Below, piece after piece: positions 746 through 14,662 of a DNA stretch of 59,683 nucleotides; position 1 is the stretch's first letter; each line of letters starts with the position of its first letter. A program made the translations under genes and the position numbers. The notes below the pieces were generated by a model that saw only the letters and a program-made list of their open reading frames with translations, ran no database searches and was not told the origin of the DNA. Source of the DNA: a virus; IMG/VR virus record IMGVR_UViG_3300030106_002282, positions 1-59,683 of that record, one strand, 5' to 3'.

Positions 746-978
746 AGCGATTGTCCTAAAACAGTGAGGGTTCTCTAGGTCTGCAACGAGCAGGGTACGA
801 TGAACGATACAGGTCGAGCAAAAGCCATGACACCTGTAATCCCTTTTGCGGTTTAGTAGTGACGTTTGGAATAATTACTGCGATAGGGAGACTCCCTCCA
901 GAGTCCACGAATTAACGTGCCGAAGAGAATCCTAATTATGGGGTTCAAGAAACTCTAACTAATGGAGGTTAGAAAATT
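746..978 (+). ncRNA. Structured leader of the first plus-strand gene
   Basis: A 233-base stretch without a credible gene. Several local hairpins can be read: ACAGGT (809-814) with ACCTGT (832-837), GACTC (890-894) with GAGTC (901-905), and CACG (906-909) with CGTG (916-919). It ends in the Shine-Dalgarno hairpin before the gene at 979. It probably also holds the promoter of the early plus-strand unit, but I could not pick a convincing -35/-10 pair. It does not contain the CUGANGA hammerhead core that the next leaders have. Its RNA class is unknown. Confidence 0.4.
955..972 (+). promoter_or_regulatory. Shine-Dalgarno presented in a hairpin loop
   Basis: CTAAC (955-959) pairs with GTTAG (968-972), leaving TAATGGAG in the loop; the start codon is at 979. 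Confidence 0.55.
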
Positions 979-1119
979 ATGACAAAGCAAGAAGTAGAAA
1001 ACTTAATTTCTAAAAAGAAACAAGAACGAAAAGAAATTAATGCGGAACTTATAAGACTGCAGAAAATTAAAAATGACCTTTTTCAAGAAGAATTAATCAA
1101 TTCTTACATGAAATGGTAA
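979..1119 (+). CDS. Small coiled-coil protein
   Basis: 46 aa, starting MTKQEVENLISKKKQE. It is almost entirely charged helix with heptad-like hydrophobic spacing (L, I, L, I), so a short coiled coil is likely. It is supported by a strong Shine-Dalgarno (TGGAGG at 963-968) and by its place as the first gene of the early plus-strand series. I do not recognise a family. The hammerhead-like leader of the next gene begins 3 bases after its stop codon. Confidence 0.6.
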   Translation: MTKQEVENLISKKKQERKEINAELIRLQKIKNDLFQEELINSYMKW

Positions 1120-1121
1120 TA

Positions 1122-1202
1122 GCCTACTGACGTGCTAGTGAAATTCTAGCGAAACGCATTAAATAGATTTAAGTCTAGCCTGTAAAAAGGTTGCTTCTAG
1201 GT
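1122..1202 (+). ncRNA. Hammerhead-like RNA, type I, degenerate
   Basis: Stem I GCCTA (1122-1126) pairs with TAGGT (1198-1202). The core reads CTGACGT (1127-1133), then stem II GCTAG/CTAGC (1134-1138, 1146-1150) with loop TGAAATT, then GAAAC (1151-1155). Two hairpins follow (TAGAT/GTCTA at 1164-1177; CCT/AGG at 1179-1190) and then TTC (1195-1197), the predicted cleavage triplet. The layout matches the element at 1667-1748 with different stem sequences, that is, with covariation. The essential core A9 is a T here and the predicted stem III has mismatches, so this copy may be weak or inactive. Confidence 0.4.
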
Positions 1203-1203
1203 G

Positions 1204-1221
1204 GTTGGCAATAATGCCAAC
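1204..1221 (+). other. Hairpin after the ribozyme-like element
   Basis: GTTGGCA (1204-1210) pairs with TGCCAAC (1215-1221). An equivalent 7-bp hairpin with changed base pairs follows the next element (1749-1766), so the hairpin is a conserved part of these leaders. It lacks a T-tract and is not a terminator. Confidence 0.6.
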
Positions 1222-1232
1222 TATTTTAATAA

Positions 1233-1250
1233 CTAACTAATGGAGGTTAG
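1233..1250 (+). promoter_or_regulatory. Shine-Dalgarno presented in a hairpin loop
   Basis: CTAAC (1233-1237) pairs with GTTAG (1246-1250) around TAATGGAG, two bases before the start codon at 1253. Confidence 0.55.
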
Positions 1251-1252
1251 AA

Positions 1253-1666
1253 ATGAAAATAAATTTTATAGAAATAGCAGGATATGAAAGTATTGATGCC
1301 AATATAGATTTCATTAACAATGAAATAACTCCTGTTGATTACGTGAAAAACTTTTCATGTAATGCAGTTCCTGTTGAAGGTGGCGGTCTTTGGTATTCCT
1401 ATACATTTAATAATTTGCTCGTGACTGTTATCTGTCACCCAGGTTCTATTGGTGGTCTTAGCGGTAAATGGGAAATAGGTATCAGAAATAAAGATACAGG
1501 TGAATGGTTAAATGTTCCTAATGGATATATTTCCACAAGTCAGGGAGGTGTCGAGGGTTGGAAATCTTGGAATGAAATCCAGATAATCCTTAAAAAAATT
1601 CTTGCTGACGCTATGGAAGAAATTCGTTTAGAGAGTAAAGAGCCACTTACCTTAGAAGATTTATAA
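1253..1666 (+). CDS. Hypothetical early phage protein
   Basis: 137 aa. I do not recognise a family. The N-terminal two thirds is mixed alpha/beta with a Gly-rich stretch (PVEGGGLWYSY at about residues 41-51, PGSIGGLSGKWEIGI at about 64-78) and many aromatic residues. The last 30 residues form a charged helix. It is soluble with no signal peptide. A strong Shine-Dalgarno in a hairpin loop precedes it, and hammerhead-like leaders lie on both sides, so it was probably expressed as part of the same early series as the downstream AAA+ ATPase. Confidence 0.75.
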   Translation: MKINFIEIAGYESIDANIDFINNEITPVDYVKNFSCNAVPVEGGGLWYSYTFNNLLVTVICHPGSIGGLSGKWEIGIRNKDTGEWLNVPNGYISTSQGGVEGWKSWNEIQIILKKILADAMEEIRLESKEPLTLEDL

Positions 1667-1748
1667 ATCAACTGACGAGCCTGTGAAATTCAGGCGAAAC
1701 ATTAAACTAGTATCCAGTAATGGACTAACCCTATACGGGTGTCTTGGT
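1667..1748 (+). ncRNA. Hammerhead ribozyme candidate, type I
   Basis: Stem I ATCAA (1667-1671) pairs with TTGGT (1744-1748, two wobble-tolerant positions). The core CTGACGA (1672-1678) is intact. Stem II is GCCTG/CAGGC (1679-1683, 1691-1695) with loop TGAAATT, identical to the loop in the 1122-1202 element although the stem differs. GAAAC is at 1696-1700. Stem III begins ACATT and ends before GTC (1741-1743), the predicted cleavage triplet. Inside stem III are two hairpins (TCCA/TGGA at 1713-1724; ACCC/GGGT at 1728-1740), which is unusual for this family. It sits in the leader of the AAA+ ATPase gene. Confidence 0.55.
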
Positions 1749-1766
1749 GTTAGCAATTTTGCTAAC
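1749..1766 (+). other. Hairpin after the ribozyme-like element
   Basis: GTTAGCA (1749-1755) pairs with TGCTAAC (1760-1766). It corresponds in position to the hairpin at 1204-1221 with compensating base changes. Confidence 0.6.
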
Positions 1767-1788
1767 GAATTCTAACTTGGGAAAAAAA

Positions 1789-1802
1789 AAGATGGAGGTC
1801 TT
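1789..1802 (+). promoter_or_regulatory. Shine-Dalgarno presented in a hairpin loop
   Basis: AAGA (1789-1792) pairs with TCTT (1799-1802); the hexaloop is TGGAGG. The start codon is at 1805. Confidence 0.6.
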
Positions 1803-1804
1803 AT

Positions 1805-2854
1805 ATGAAACCAAGTCAAGCGATACTATCGATGAAATCGATATTAAAGGGTTCTAATACTCCTTACCTTCAAGGTAAGCCAGGTATTGGAAAAAGTGCA
1901 ATTGTTAGGAAACTAGCCGAAGAATTTGCAGAAGATAGAGAGATTGTAAATTCAATTAATCCAACTAAAAAACAGTTTGGGTTTATTGATTTCAGATTGT
2001 CTCTTTATGAGACTGTTGATTTAGGCGGGTTGCCTTACATAGACGAAGATAACCAACAGAAGAGAGCCTTTTTAGGAAATCTTCCTGTAGGTGGCGAGGG
2101 CATATTATTCTTTGATGAATTTGCTCAGGCTCATTCGTCTGTGATGTGTGTCTGCGGACAATTACTCTATGAAAGAAAAATCGGAGAGTATGTTCTGCCT
2201 GAAGGGTGGAAGATTGTCTGTGCGGGAAACAGGGCAACTGACAGAGCAGGAGCAAATAAAATTCCTACTCAAGTTAATGACAGGTGTACGATGTTAAATG
2301 TAGATGAAAACATCAACGACTGGATTGCATGGGCAACTGAGAATGATGTAAGTCCTGACGTATTGGGATTCATTAGTTATGAACCTCAGTACCTTTGCGA
2401 CTTTGACCCAAAAATAACGACTCCACAGCCGAGTCCTCGTTCTTGGGTTCGTCTTTCTGATACATTGAAAACGAATCCGCCAAAAGAAATTTTGCAATTA
2501 GTTTGTGAAGGGGATATTGGCGAGACTGCTTCGATTGAATTTCTTACCTTTTTGTCTTTGAAAAATGACTTGCCGAATGTTCAAGACATTTGCGAAGGCA
2601 AAGACGTAGAAATGATTGACGAGGGCGGTAAATCTTATGCTCTAGTTTGTGCATTAGTTTCGATTCTTAAATCGGAAATAGATAATCCAAACGTAGCTAA
2701 TTATTTTCAAAATAGTCTTAACTATGTTGAGAAATTACCTACTCCAGAATTTGCGATTTTCTATGTTCGTTCTTTGATTGGAGCAATACCAGACTTAGCA
2801 GAAACTTCTACTTATTCTGATTTCAAAATTAGAAATCAAGATTTAGAAGTCTAG
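1805..2854 (+). CDS. MoxR-like AAA+ ATPase
   Basis: 349 aa. The Walker A motif is GKPGIGKS (residues 24-31) and the Walker B motif is ILFFDEFAQA (about residues 101-110). This fits the AAA_5/MoxR branch, whose members act as chaperone-like ATPases that load or remodel a VWA-domain partner. The partner candidate is encoded two genes downstream (3990-5339), with a DUF3150-like protein between them. This three-gene set recurs in phages and prophages, but its role there is unproven. The long leader with a hammerhead candidate and a hairpin-borne Shine-Dalgarno suggests post-transcriptional control. There is no membrane segment. Confidence 0.85.
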   Translation: MKPSQAILSMKSILKGSNTPYLQGKPGIGKSAIVRKLAEEFAEDREIVNSINPTKKQFGFIDFRLSLYETVDLGGLPYIDEDNQQKRAFLGNLPVGGEGILFFDEFAQAHSSVMCVCGQLLYERKIGEYVLPEGWKIVCAGNRATDRAGANKIPTQVNDRCTMLNVDENINDWIAWATENDVSPDVLGFISYEPQYLCDFDPKITTPQPSPRSWVRLSDTLKTNPPKEILQLVCEGDIGETASIEFLTFLSLKNDLPNVQDICEGKDVEMIDEGGKSYALVCALVSILKSEIDNPNVANYFQNSLNYVEKLPTPEFAIFYVRSLIGAIPDLAETSTYSDFKIRNQDLEV

Positions 2855-2880
2855 GTTGAAAAATGAATTGGGCGAGATGT

Positions 2881-2904
2881 AAAAAAATATTATTCGCTAG
2901 TGAA
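2881..2904 (-). repeat. Dispersed palindromic motif
   Basis: Read on the minus strand: TTCACTAGCGAA followed by TAATATTTTTTT. One core base differs (GCGA instead of GTGA). It lies between the ATPase stop codon and the hammerhead ribozyme at 2930. Confidence 0.75.
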
Positions 2905-2929
2905 TAAAATTACATCTTGCTCACTTCAA

Positions 2930-2986
2930 TATCTGATATTGGAATGTGTATTCCAACTGACGAGCAGGAAACTGCGAAATCAGATA
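2930..2986 (+). ncRNA. Hammerhead ribozyme, type III
   Basis: All elements of a hammerhead are present. Stem III is TATCTGAT (2930-2937) with ATCAGATA (2979-2986), 8 perfect pairs. The cleavage nucleotide is A2938 (triplet ATA). Stem I is TTGGAAT (2939-2945) with ATTCCAA (2950-2956), 7 perfect pairs with loop GTGT. The core CTGACGA is at 2957-2963. Stem II is GCAG/CTGC (2964-2967, 2972-2975) with a GAAA tetraloop, and GAA is at 2976-2978 next to A15.1 (2979). The order makes it type III, with cleavage predicted between 2938 and 2939. It lies in the leader of the gene at 3017, so cleavage would leave the downstream message with a 5' hydroxyl and a defined structured 5' end. Confidence 0.85.
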
Positions 2987-2999
2987 ACTTTTATCTAAC

Positions 3000-3013
3000 A
3001 GAATGGAGGTTCT
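3000..3013 (+). promoter_or_regulatory. Shine-Dalgarno presented in a hairpin loop
   Basis: AGAA (3000-3003) pairs with TTCT (3010-3013); the loop is TGGAGG. The start codon is at 3017. Confidence 0.6.
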
Positions 3014-3016
3014 AAA

Positions 3017-4003
3017 ATGGATAAAAAATTAACTAATACCTTATCGGAAAACTGTATGTTGGTACGTCTTACTGCAAGACATCCTTCAGGCATTAAGGTC
3101 GATAAGAAGTTAAGAAGCGATTTAGCGGTTGATACGAAAGTATCTGACGATAAATTGTTAGGTGTTTCTAAACATATCTTTGGTCGAAATATCAATAAAG
3201 AGTTTCGCCAAATTTTAGATAAGTTTAGAAATGACTTTTATAAACCTTTAACTTTACCCTGGGACGATTCTTCTTCCCTTGACGAAGAGGGAAAAGTTTT
3301 ATCGGAATGGCGACTTTGCCCTAACACGAATCTTGAGCGACTTCAGTATGAAGTAGACCAAGCGACTCTTGTCTGGGATAAAGAAGTTCAAGGGTTTCTC
3401 AGAACCTATCCTAAACAAATGGAAATGGCGAAGAGAAATTTGGGCGATGCTTTCAGAGAAAGTGATTACATGGATTTTGACAAATTAAGACAAAAGTTTT
3501 TGTTTCAATTTGAAATGACTCCTGTTCCTACTTTCGGAAACGATATCAGACTTAACGTCTCAGAAAAGTTAAGGCAGAGAATAGAAGCGGATGCGATTAA
3601 TCGCCAAAGTAAAAACATCAATAACGTAATGACAATTACTGTTGATGCTTTGCTAGAGCAGGTTAATCACGTTGCAACTAAACTCAAAGAGTATGACCCT
3701 GACAATAAGCAGAAAGGCGGATTCTTTAACAAGTCTAGTTTCGAGAAATTGAGACAAGCGGTTGAAGTGCTACCTTCTATTAATCAGGACGTACTAGGCA
3801 ATAATCAAAATATTGCTGACGCTCATCAAAGTCTTTGTTCTGTTCTTGCAACAATAAATTCTGTTGATTCTCTTAGAGATGAAACAGATTTAGGGAAGCA
3901 AAAACGTGGACAGGTTGCTGAAGGTCTTGAGCGGTCTGTTGATGGACTGAAAGGCAATTTGTTCGACAAAATTTATGGAGGTAAGAAAGATGAAAACTCT
4001 TGA
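3017..4003 (+). CDS. DUF3150-like protein of the MoxR/VWA module
   Basis: 328 aa, soluble and mostly helical. The N-terminus (NCMLVRLTARHPSGIKVDKK) and the following conserved-looking block resemble DUF3150 proteins, which are usually encoded between a MoxR-like ATPase and a VWA protein in phage genomes. Position supports this better than sequence recall alone. It starts 30 bases after the hammerhead ribozyme. Its end overlaps the start of the next gene by 14 bases, and the Shine-Dalgarno of that gene lies inside its final codons, so the two are translationally coupled. Biochemical function is unknown. Confidence 0.65.
   Translation: MDKKLTNTLSENCMLVRLTARHPSGIKVDKKLRSDLAVDTKVSDDKLLGVSKHIFGRNINKEFRQILDKFRNDFYKPLTLPWDDSSSLDEEGKVLSEWRLCPNTNLERLQYEVDQATLVWDKEVQGFLRTYPKQMEMAKRNLGDAFRESDYMDFDKLRQKFLFQFEMTPVPTFGNDIRLNVSEKLRQRIEADAINRQSKNINNVMTITVDALLEQVNHVATKLKEYDPDNKQKGGFFNKSSFEKLRQAVEVLPSINQDVLGNNQNIADAHQSLCSVLATINSVDSLRDETDLGKQKRGQVAEGLERSVDGLKGNLFDKIYGGKKDENS
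3973..3984 (+). promoter_or_regulatory. Shine-Dalgarno in a short hairpin, inside the upstream gene
   Basis: TTA (3973-3975) and TAA (3982-3984) flank TGGAGG. This decides the start of the next gene: the ATG at 3975 overlaps the Shine-Dalgarno itself, so 3990 is the real start. Confidence 0.45.
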
Positions 4004-5339
4004 TTCCATAATTAAGGCTAGAGCAAAATTGATGAAAGGGCATATTGGCATGGCTAGTATGCTCCTTAATCTTGACTTGGTTGAATGTGAAGAATCAAAG
4101 TGCAATACGATGGCAACAGATGGTAAAAACATTTTTTACTATCCGCCTTTCGTGGATAAATTAACTGAAGCAGAATTGCGAGGTGTACTTGTTCACGAAG
4201 CGTTGCACGTTGTTTATGAGCATCCACTAAGACGTGGTAAACGTCATCCTAAAGTATGGAATATTGCTTGTGATTACGTTATCAATGCTTACTTGTATTG
4301 GGATTTAGGTTTTGAATTGCCTTTTGGCGGTTTACTTGACCATAAATACAAGGGTTGGTCTGCGGAAAAGGTCTATCAACATTTAATTAAAAATGAAAAT
4401 GACCTGCAAGAAGCAATTGAGCAAGTCAAACAGCAGAATCAAGATGCGGACATGGAGGACGATTCGCAAGATTCTGAAATACCAGACACTAGTGAAGAAA
4501 ATATTTCTGAAGAAGCTGACGAAGATAGCGAAGCCGATGGCGGAGAATCTGAGTCAATTGATTTAGATGCTATTCCTTCAACTATTGGCGAGGTATTAGA
4601 TGCAACTGACGATGAAGGAAAGCCTTTGAGTGATGCTGAGATTCAAGAAATTTCAACTGAGATTCAAAGAGCAGTAGCCTTATCTGACAAGTTAGAAATA
4701 GCTGTTGGAAGCGGTACTAATTCATCTTGCGGTGGCAGAATGGAAGAATTGAAAGAAACTTCAATTGACTGGAAAGAGCAATTGAATGACCTCTTACGTT
4801 CTTCTTTTGCTAACGATTATTCGTGGTCGAGACTGAATAAAAGGTTTGCTTGGCAGGGTTTAAATTTGCCGAGTAAAACTAGGTCTCCGCAAGGTGGCGA
4901 ATTAGCGGTTGCAATTGATACTTCAGGTTCTGTATCTCAATACGAATTGAATAAATTTGCTACTGAGATACAAGCTATGGCGGAGGACTGCGGTCTTGAA
5001 AAAATCAGAGTTTGCTACTGTGATACAACTGTTCGTAAAAATGAGCAGGGGGAATGGTGGGATTACTTTGATTTATCTTCTGGCGATGAATTGGAATTAG
5101 CAGTTCGTGGCGGTGGCGGTACAGAGTTTGACCCTGTATTTAATCTGCTGAATGACTACACTGATGATGCCGAAGATATTCAGGCGATGGTCTATTTTAC
5201 AGATGGTTGGGGAGACGTTTCTGAAGACGTTGAACCTGATGTTCCTGTGTTTTGGTGTTGTACTGAAAAAAGCAGTTATTCGGAACGTCTTGCCTTTGGC
5301 GAGGTGGTCTATGTAGATACTGCTAGATTCTACGACTAA
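3990..5339 (+). CDS. Metallopeptidase-like and VWA domain protein
   Basis: 449 aa from the ATG at 3990. The N-terminal half carries VHEALHVVYEH with a zinc-type HExxH (HEALH, about residues 69-73), as in DUF2201/VWA-like putative metallopeptidases. A very acidic linker follows (about residues 150-220). The C-terminal third is a von Willebrand A-like domain with a MIDAS motif (DTSGSVS, near residue 310) and YFTDGWGD near the end. With the MoxR-like ATPase it forms a recognisable ATPase/VWA pair. In known cases the ATPase remodels a target bound by the VWA protein; the target here is unknown. Confidence 0.8.
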   Translation: MKTLDSIIKARAKLMKGHIGMASMLLNLDLVECEESKCNTMATDGKNIFYYPPFVDKLTEAELRGVLVHEALHVVYEHPLRRGKRHPKVWNIACDYVINAYLYWDLGFELPFGGLLDHKYKGWSAEKVYQHLIKNENDLQEAIEQVKQQNQDADMEDDSQDSEIPDTSEENISEEADEDSEADGGESESIDLDAIPSTIGEVLDATDDEGKPLSDAEIQEISTEIQRAVALSDKLEIAVGSGTNSSCGGRMEELKETSIDWKEQLNDLLRSSFANDYSWSRLNKRFAWQGLNLPSKTRSPQGGELAVAIDTSGSVSQYELNKFATEIQAMAEDCGLEKIRVCYCDTTVRKNEQGEWWDYFDLSSGDELELAVRGGGGTEFDPVFNLLNDYTDDAEDIQAMVYFTDGWGDVSEDVEPDVPVFWCCTEKSSYSERLAFGEVVYVDTARFYD

Positions 5340-5350
5340 AAACTTTCTAT

Positions 5351-5400
5351 TAGCGAGTGATATTTGAGGGGTACTCAGATATCACTTGCTATTAGTTTTG
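5351..5400 (+). terminator. Terminator-like hairpin after the VWA gene
   Basis: Bases 5351-5368 pair with 5374-5391 over 18 consecutive positions (two G-T pairs), with loop GGGTA, followed by TTAGTTTTG. The stem is long and AT-rich and the T-tract is weak, so it may be a partial terminator or a processing/stability structure rather than a full stop. Confidence 0.55.
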
Positions 5401-5434
5401 CCCTCTATGAGCCTGTATGGAGGTCTAATTTTAA

Positions 5435-5521
5435 AAACTGATAGCAAAATGTGTGTTTTGCCTGATGAACGCGAAAGCGTACCCTTCTAGGAGGGTGGCT
5501 CAAAAGAGCCGAAATCAGTTT
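5435..5521 (+). ncRNA. Hammerhead ribozyme with expanded stem II region
   Basis: Stem III AAACTGAT (5435-5442) pairs perfectly with ATCAGTTT (5514-5521). A5443 is the predicted cleavage nucleotide. Stem I is GCAAAA (5444-5449) with TTTTGC (5456-5461). The core CTGATGA is at 5462-5468 and GAA at 5511-5513. Between the two core strands are three hairpins instead of one: ACGC/GCGT (5469-5480, GAAA loop), ACCCT/AGGGT (5481-5496) and GGCTC/GAGCC (5497-5510, AAAA loop). The order is the same type III order as at 2930-2986. Whether the core tolerates this insertion is the main uncertainty. Confidence 0.6.
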
Positions 5522-5532
5522 AACTAACTTTT

Positions 5533-5550
5533 ATAAGATGGAGGTCTTAT
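5533..5550 (+). promoter_or_regulatory. Shine-Dalgarno presented in a hairpin loop
   Basis: ATAAGA (5533-5538) pairs with TCTTAT (5545-5550), loop TGGAGG. The 3' strand runs into the ATG at 5549. Confidence 0.65.
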
Positions 5551-5821
5551 GAATGATTTAAATATGAAGGTATTCTATAAAAATGTTTATGGTAATGACC
5601 TTTGCTATCCTTTTTGCAACACTGCAAAGAAATTCGCAAAGTTAATTGACCAAAAAACTTTTAATAAATACCACTTGGAAACAATAAAAACTTTGAAATA
5701 TAAAATTGATATTGTTGCTTATAATCCTAAACAAAAAGATGCTTGGGACACTTCTGCTAAATGGATTAAAGAGGATATGAAAGAAAATCCTCAGAGATAC
5801 CAAAACAAGGAGGAGTTATGA
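5549..5821 (+). CDS. Hypothetical early protein
   Basis: 90 aa, basic and Lys-rich, no membrane segment. I do not recognise a family. Its N-terminal part has the pattern FYKNVYGNDLCYPFCNTAKK. It starts a short co-directional unit whose genes overlap by 4 bases (5818, 6015, 6722, 6850), which is typical of coupled phage early genes. It is preceded by the expanded hammerhead and a 6-bp Shine-Dalgarno hairpin. Confidence 0.75.
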   Translation: MNDLNMKVFYKNVYGNDLCYPFCNTAKKFAKLIDQKTFNKYHLETIKTLKYKIDIVAYNPKQKDAWDTSAKWIKEDMKENPQRYQNKEEL

Positions 5822-6018
5822 CTGAGAAAATCATTTTAATTTTAGGTTCTATTTGTATATGTGTTTTCACTACAATTGCTTATTCTCAAGCAGATTATGT
5901 GTTTGAGAATGGTTATCCATCACAAGCAAATTTGCTGATTATTTTTTCGGCAGGTTTGTTCGTGGGTATTTCAATTGCAACTGTTTTTTCCAGATTATTT
6001 TATGGAGATAAAACATGA
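5818..6018 (+). CDS. Small two-TM membrane protein
   Basis: 66 aa. Two hydrophobic segments are visible, about residues 4-24 (IILILGSICICVFTTIAY) and about 41-59 (LLIIFSAGLFVGISIATVF). A short soluble loop joins them and the C-terminus is charged. The start overlaps the previous stop (ATGA) and has a good GGAGG. It is an early-region membrane protein of unknown function. A holin role is possible from topology but the position in the early unit argues against it. Confidence 0.75.
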   Translation: MTEKIILILGSICICVFTTIAYSQADYVFENGYPSQANLLIIFSAGLFVGISIATVFSRLFYGDKT

Positions 6019-14459: not shown

Positions 14460-14662
14460 TGGAAATACCTAAAATAAACCAAGAACTAAGCAATACTCTT
14501 TACCAATATATGAAGAAGGAACACTTAGACACGCACAATAAAATAACCGATGATGAATGGGAAGATTTTATTGATGAATATCAAGATTGTTTTGCCGAAC
14601 AATGTGGCGAACTTGCTCGTGTATTATTTACAGAGTTTTTAATTGATAAGGAGAAAGCATGA
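14459..14662 (+). CDS. Hypothetical acidic protein
   Basis: 67 aa, strongly acidic (ITDDEWEDFIDEYQDCF in the centre) and helical. It belongs to a run of short genes joined by ATGA or TAATG overlaps from 14232 to 15520. No family is recognised. Confidence 0.65.
   Translation: MEIPKINQELSNTLYQYMKKEHLDTHNKITDDEWEDFIDEYQDCFAEQCGELARVLFTEFLIDKEKA

Follow-up and report, generated by a model that had tools for sequence, protein, structure and literature searches.

Predicted type I hammerhead ribozymes with a branched stem III in the gene leaders of a marine phage group

The viral record IMGVR_UViG_3300030106_002282, from an uncultured marine phage and analysed over its whole length of 59,683 nucleotides (the window), contains several small genes in succession at positions 900-5550, with structured leaders between them. 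Phage hammerheads have been reported since 2011 and their role is not settled; the question raised by this locus is whether its leaders are hammerhead ribozymes and what a cut between the genes would serve. A sequence-only reading had singled out two leaders, at 1122-1202 (E1) and 1667-1748 (E2), as type I hammerheads with the shared order stem I, CUGACG, stem II, GAAAC, two hairpins, cleavage triplet, stem I and third hairpin, an identical UGAAAUU loop on stem II, and covarying stems. Direct reading confirmed the order and the loop in both elements, as well as the type I arrangement, with a complete core in E2 and the same order with U at position 9 in E1 (Table 1).

Table 1 Coordinates of the ribozyme-like elements, their parts and the neighbouring genes in the window
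Feature	Position	Strand	Basis
Type III hammerhead-like element, CCGAAGA core box (C at U4), AA before GAAA	900-956	+	laxer scan
E1, hammerhead-like type I element, U9	1122-1202	+	sequence; alignment A3 with relatives; pair counts
E1 core box CUGACGU, A9 replaced by U	1127-1133	+	sequence; U9 common to L037, L101, L104, L165, L183, L326
E1 stem III, predicted three-way junction, ACGCA/UGCUU with one C.U mismatch	1154-1196	+	alignment; pair counts; energy model
E1 stem III hairpins	1164-1177 and 1179-1190	+	sequence
E1 predicted cut	after C1197	+	cleavage triplet UUC 1195-1197
Third hairpin 3' of E1, 10 bp, starting 3 nt past predicted cut	1201-1224	+	
137 aa ORF between E1 and E2	1253-1666	+	
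E2, type I hammerhead, complete core	1667-1748	+	sequence; motif scans; alignment A2; pair counts
E2 stem III, predicted three-way junction, ACA/UGU, UUAAA, two hairpins	1699-1742	+	15 distinct sequences with GNRA loops; paired changes
E2 stem III hairpin with UA bulge, GUAA loop	1708-1727	+	
E2 stem III second hairpin	1729-1739	+	
E2 predicted cut	after C1743	+	triplet GUC 1741-1743
Third hairpin 3' of E2, 8 bp, starting 4 nt past predicted cut	1748-1767	+	
MoxR-like ATPase gene served by E2 leader	1805-2854	+	tblastn to annotated phage MoxR/AAA ATPases; alignment A1
Type III hammerhead, leader of gene 3017	2929-2986	+	strict and laxer scans
Type III hammerhead-like element, three hairpins replacing stem II, leader of gene 5549	5435-5521	+	laxer scan

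Type I elements with a branched stem III

The E2 element begins directly after the stop codon of the preceding ORF (1664-1666) and reads AUCAA/UUGGU in stem I and GCCUG-UGAAAUU-CAGGC in stem II and its loop. The CUGANGA box of a type I hammerhead is present as CUGACGA at 1672-1678, between stems I and II, while GAAAC at 1696-1700 and the cleavage triplet supply GAAA, the A15.1-U16.1 pair and an H17 other than G. The three helices are open at stem I, and stems I, II and III all show two-sided changes among 15 distinct sequences. The E1 element starts three bases past the stop codon (1117-1119) of a short ORF, with GCCUA/UAGGU in stem I, GCUAG-UGAAAUU-CUAGC in stem II and its loop, and GAAAC at 1151-1155; GAAA, A15.1-U16.1 and an H17 other than G are likewise present, but its core box carries U at position 9, and for this reason E1 is termed hammerhead-like only. 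Each element takes up the space that separates a stop codon from the following ribosome-binding site, and in both leaders the third hairpin is followed by the ribosome-binding site and ATG. For the ORF separating them, neither a relative in viral contigs (tblastn) nor a PHROG family was found.

A search of viral stretches with the E2 loop of stem II fixed and both stem strands left free gave 98 places in 95 stretches, and the five free bases per side pair 5/5 in all 98. Two kinds of element could be distinguished by what follows GAAA. The E2 kind, with 39 matches over loci that overlap and 15 distinct sequences among them, opens with A-C-N or A-U-N, which pairs with its complement, and continues with UUAAA, a first hairpin that carries a UA bulge and a GUAA, GAAA, GAGA or GUGA loop, and a second hairpin, CCC-GGG. 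In the alignment of this kind (A2), which shows conservation of loop II and of the AAA on the outer side of stem I, possible partners in a contact between stems I and II, 97.8 % of cells are paired and seven pairs show two-sided changes; the covariation score of 0.221, compared with 0.075 (sd 0.015) in shuffled alignments, was reached by none of 500 shuffles, and slid versions of the structure pair at less than 40 %. Stem II shows two-sided changes at four of its six pairs when parsed by script, the aligner having put this stem out of register. The E1 kind comprises ten distinct sequences in 31 matches, and each of its three stems shows two-sided changes. The covariation proposed in the sequence-only reading is therefore borne out among relatives of both elements. 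By this comparison, covariation is seen in all three stems and in the first hairpin of stem III, and the two hairpins after GAAA make stem III a predicted three-way junction, of which the E1 and E2 kinds are two subclasses. The junction-motif matches listed for either kind all lie in a hammerhead frame, as judged by eye; earlier matches to a shorter pattern in L096, L098 and L099 were excluded from the branched kind as coding-like sequence.

As E1 was missed by both the strict and the laxer motif scans of the window, the case for it stands on its relatives. A covariance model, a check proposed in the sequence-only reading and here built from A2, recovered E1 in the window (E 0.0076); a further match at 14540-14628 (E 0.26) was rejected, as it falls in a gene-dense stretch without hammerhead boxes. 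The same reading had taken E1 to have lost A9 and to be decaying. A9 is indeed gone, but is replaced by U rather than missing, and decay on this account is not supported, given the relatives that share the U. A scan of viral contigs for U9 elements, with a pattern that fixed the other core letters and would miss copies with further core changes, returned ten stretches, and over all loci seven distinct U9 bodies were found (window E1, L037, L101, L104, L183, L165 and L326). All seven, from several phages, have the E1 kind of stem III, and by eye they show two-sided changes in stem I (U-A to A-U), stem III (C-G to A-U) and the first hairpin (U-A to A-U and A-U to C-G). The U9 form thus appears to have been maintained by selection on its structure. 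What sets E1 apart as weak is, on this comparison, not U9 but the C15.2.U16.2 mismatch in stem III of the window copy, where the other nine distinct sequences of the E1 kind pair.

Occurrence in the window and in related phages

Five ribozyme-like elements occur in about 4.6 kb of the window; the sequence-only reading had counted four in 4.5 kb, so that the clustering holds and the number is raised. The strict motif scan of the window returned E2 and the type III element near 2929, and the same scan gave 8 type I and no type III matches in total over 200 dinucleotide shuffles of the window. The laxer scan, whose background over 60 shuffles was 18 type I and 4 type III matches in all, returned 900-956, E2, 2930-2986, 5435-5521 and 4601-4731, the last of which lies inside a gene and is probably due to chance. 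The element at 5435-5521 is the minimum-energy fold (z -4.28), and in L091 (reverse strand, about 5314-5402) both bases of one of its hairpin pairs are changed. Long imperfect inverted repeats lie just upstream of both type III leaders (2860-2930 and 5340-5400), with window 2840-2960 folding at z -4.65; these are perhaps terminators or phage-polymerase promoters.

No DNA similarity to known phages was found for window 900-6000. The first MoxR matches pointed to an N4-like identity, which was dropped as the terminase points to pelagiphages. By large terminase, the closest cultured phages are HTVC023P and HTVC027P (52-54 % amino acid identity) and DSL-LC04 and 023Pt_psg01 (56-57 %). A scan of 106 kb of the genomes of four cultured relatives found no hammerhead, and the A2 covariance model had no match in the four isolate regions. 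No MoxR gene is annotated in the fetched parts of HTVC023P-type pelagiphages, and the words 'ribozyme', 'hammerhead' and 'MoxR' are absent from the main text of a report on these phages (PMC9599517).

To avoid selection by ribozyme, relatives were chosen by the MoxR protein alone (alignment A1), the best 80 of 217 viral relatives being taken; several of these loci are near-identical contigs, for which the distinct counts below allow. Within the 350 bases upstream of MoxR, taken as its leader, a hammerhead was found in 37/80 loci by the strict, 54/80 by the laxer and 76/80 by a relaxed scan, the last matching 12/2000 shuffled leaders and 0/80 reverse strands. Three leaders missed by the relaxed scan (L118, L119 and L052) contain, by eye, a hammerhead with an imperfect stem II, bringing the count to 79/80, while L170 seemingly has none. 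Over all loci, the 65 distinct MoxR leaders comprise 61 with type I, one with type III and three without a hammerhead. Distinct leaders of gene 3017 carry one in 25/57 cases (18 type III, 7 type I), those of gene 5549 in 4/14 and those of the VWA gene in 2/53, and none was found in distinct leaders of the small terminase subunit (0/65), the large terminase subunit (0/35) or the portal (0/23).

Across the 80 loci (636,260 bp), 273 elements lie on the coding strand and four on the opposite strand, after a filter for matches inside genes that lowered the matches from 287 to 273 and the distinct elements from 160 to 150. The filter removed matches within genes whose apparent stem III held a long insert (L105, L122 2040, L141, L153 and L100 8787), judged to be chance. 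The 150 distinct coding-strand elements (83 type I and 67 type III, with one to seven elements per locus) still include L122 5880, L145 4468 and L148, in which position 9 is changed and the sequence is coding-like. A ribosome-binding site and start codon lie within 130 nt downstream of 147/150, compared with 1130/4000 random places, and this placement between stop codon and ribosome-binding site emerges from the comparison as a general feature of the elements.

Several variants were observed alongside these counts. The CUGAUGAUUAGC form is common here. It fits the U10.1-U11.1 mismatch listed with natural core variants in section 8 of Perreault 2011 (PMC3088659), a section that does not mention U9. 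The MoxR leaders of L163, L165, L166, L168 and L111-L120 show further recurring core variants, one in which U4 is replaced by C (CCGATGA) and one in which A9 and stem II are separated by an additional base, and that of L159 resembles the 900-956 kind of the window, but with CUGAUGA. Type I hammerheads with a stem III of 148-241 bases occur in L150 (3321-3568), L081 (1995-2242), L154 (3060-3245), L169 (3111-3296) and L051 (3337-3615); the long inserts of L150 and its relatives have hairpins in common and an A-rich stretch, that of L150 matched no Rfam family except a weak hammerhead, and they are a candidate embedded RNA domain. In L034 (1884-2014) and L052 (1513-1643) a branched stem III of 93 bases is found, another L034 leader (1521-1583) having a plain one.

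A predicted cut between genes

Hammerheads cleave 3' of H17, leaving a 2',3'-cyclic phosphate and a 5'-hydroxyl. We consider it probable that E2 is a type I hammerhead and E1 its U9 relative, both with a branched stem III, and that they are self-cutting RNAs placed between genes that yield mRNAs with a 5' hairpin. The nascent polycistronic message would cut itself after H17, between genes; the downstream mRNA would gain a 5'-hydroxyl end with three to five unpaired bases and then a stable hairpin, while the upstream message would end in the folded ribozyme. One long phage transcript may in this way be divided, with no host nuclease, into single-gene mRNAs that are each stabilised on their own. 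Good cutting would be expected of E2 and slow or poor cutting of E1, and E1 and other weak copies may leave some messages joined. In phage T7, RNase III, a host enzyme, cuts the long early transcript between genes into separate mRNAs; the likeness lies in the intergenic cutting of a long phage transcript, and the difference in that the RNA is here predicted to cut itself.

In 50 of the 53 distinct MoxR leaders the start codon follows the predicted cut at a distance of 50 to 86 bases; the remaining three were misparsed. A hairpin of at least 7 bp starts 3-8 nt past the cut in 26/36 distinct MoxR leaders (130/1800 shuffled) and in 18/39 other type I leaders (103/1950 shuffled). In E. coli, a 5' hairpin can stabilise an mRNA by slowing its decay, as described in the consulted portion of PMC3997798, and from the cut position, the downstream hairpin and this effect we infer that self-cutting may be coupled to protection of the new 5' end. 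The 5' hairpin is the weaker part of the model, since 9/36 MoxR leaders and 19/39 other leaders have no 6 bp hairpin just past the cut.

It is unlikely that the elements are instead non-cutting relics of hammerheads, or structural leaders that fold for translation, stability or protein binding, even though E1 has a changed core position 9 and an imperfect stem III and the hammerhead is not the minimum-energy fold. In a nearest-neighbour model the hammerhead fold reaches -12.3 kcal/mol against a minimum of -19.5 in E2 and -11.2 against -16.9 in E1, while in L037 (-15.1 and -16.9) it comes within 1.8 kcal/mol of the minimum. Unguided RNAalifold on A2 recovered stem I and both stem III hairpins, but paired core bases in place of stem III and missed stem II. 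As modelled, these results count against easy folding, an objection that the covariation does not remove. A purely structural role, however, would not call for the core letters that are kept, and a core-tolerant finder showed G12, A13, A14, A15.1 and U16.1 to be present in 53/53 distinct MoxR-leader elements while the stems vary freely, with H17 as C, A or T in 52/53 (this set includes the three misparsed leaders, L118/L119, L159 and L170). C at U4, which would agree with relics, occurs in 2/53, and N7 varies (C in 16, T in 29, A in 7 and G in 1).

Module exchange and relation to known hammerheads

The sequence-only reading had also proposed that leaders duplicate and spread. Spread is seen in the form of exchange between phages: in the window E1 lies upstream of the 137 aa ORF, whereas in L091 and L060 a near relative of it lies upstream of MoxR, and in those loci the downstream hairpin and leader of the window E1 sit behind an ordinary A9 type I ribozyme; a nearly identical downstream leader trails a different ribozyme in L100. 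For a mosaic test, 105 type I elements were divided into the 200 bases upstream, the ribozyme body and the 60 bases downstream. The same body with both flanks different was found in 40 pairs, the same downstream part with upstream and body different in 90, and the same flanks with a different body in six, these pairs not being independent; in one case of like flanks (L122 2439 and L124 2475) a plain stem III is swapped for a branched one. The leader of gene 3017 holds a type III element in the window and a type I element with a long stem III insert in L150, L051 and others, so that even the permutation changes at one place. Duplication fared less well, as no type I pair with bodies at least 90 % alike was found on one contig, and recent duplication within a genome is thus not seen. 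On this comparison, ribozyme bodies are modules exchanged among the leaders of related phages.

That the ribozymes serve chiefly as recombination points for swapping small genes or leaders, with cleavage secondary, would agree with these mosaic pairs and with the unlike genes between the ribozymes of the window and L091. We regard this as quite unlikely, as it leaves the conservation of catalytic letters unexplained, any conserved intergenic module would be expected to undergo exchange, and the pairs are not independent observations. The branched stem III could also be a sensor of a ligand, a protein or the state of infection that switches cleavage, as a natural allosteric hammerhead, with the U9 subclass tuned to need the sensor; candidate parts are the constant UUAAA junction strand, the GNRA-capped hairpin with the UA bulge and the second hairpin, and we hold this to be improbable. 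A reading as chance, or as ordinary terminator hairpins mistaken for hammerheads, which the abundant inverted repeats of the region and the failure of both motif scans on E1 alone might suggest, is rejected as barely credible in view of the shuffles (76/80 leaders compared with 12/2000, and the A2 covariation score) and the strand bias.

The self-cutting elements proposed here share their core boxes with the Rfam families RF00163 (Hammerhead_1) and RF00008 (Hammerhead_3). Neither the window nor any of 11 related loci gave an Rfam match at gathering score, and RF00163 had no match at E 0.001 in the window record; E2 (20.3 bits) and the L150 element (22.4 bits) fall below the curated cut-off of RF00008 (48.5 bits). 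Canonical relatives among the 11 loci also fail the cut-off, and the failure thus speaks to the reach of the models.

In the sections consulted, Perreault 2011 (PMC3088659) describes three hammerhead clusters in bacterial DNA, with prophage examples, that cut in vitro, and several hammerhead types flanking single genes or short blocks in prophage DNA, for which processing of long phage RNAs into single-gene mRNAs was proposed. The present elements are similar to those clusters in that several hammerhead types lie near one another between phage genes. They differ from the clusters as described there in the three-way junction of stem III and the U9 subclass, and in numbering up to seven per locus and being near-fixed in one leader across a phage group. 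Compared with the rearranged hammerheads in the consulted part of PMC10085705, their order is that of ordinary type I. A wide hammerhead pattern also matches bacterial and archaeal genomes, with many Legionella among the matches listed, in agreement with the 2011 report. These matches and the clusters reported in 2011 show that the kind itself was already known. As far as the searched literature goes, in which only PMC3088659 and PMC10085705 were relevant (bioRxiv and most subscription papers lay outside it and may hold earlier reports), what is new is the branching of stem III, the U9 form as a maintained subclass, and the density of the elements.

A whole marine phage group thus keeps a hammerhead upstream of one gene, in an almost constant position. 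The hammerhead is swapped for another with a different sequence, or with a different permutation in the case of a second gene, and the catalytic letters are kept. As read from these comparisons, this pattern would be difficult to account for without selection for cutting. The elements, many of which escape current Rfam models, provide a natural set for testing the purpose of the cut, and the U9 subclass offers a natural way to ask how strictly the hammerhead core is fixed. The occurrence of hammerheads before many of the same genes in relatives suggests that the phage cuts its messages into single-gene pieces.
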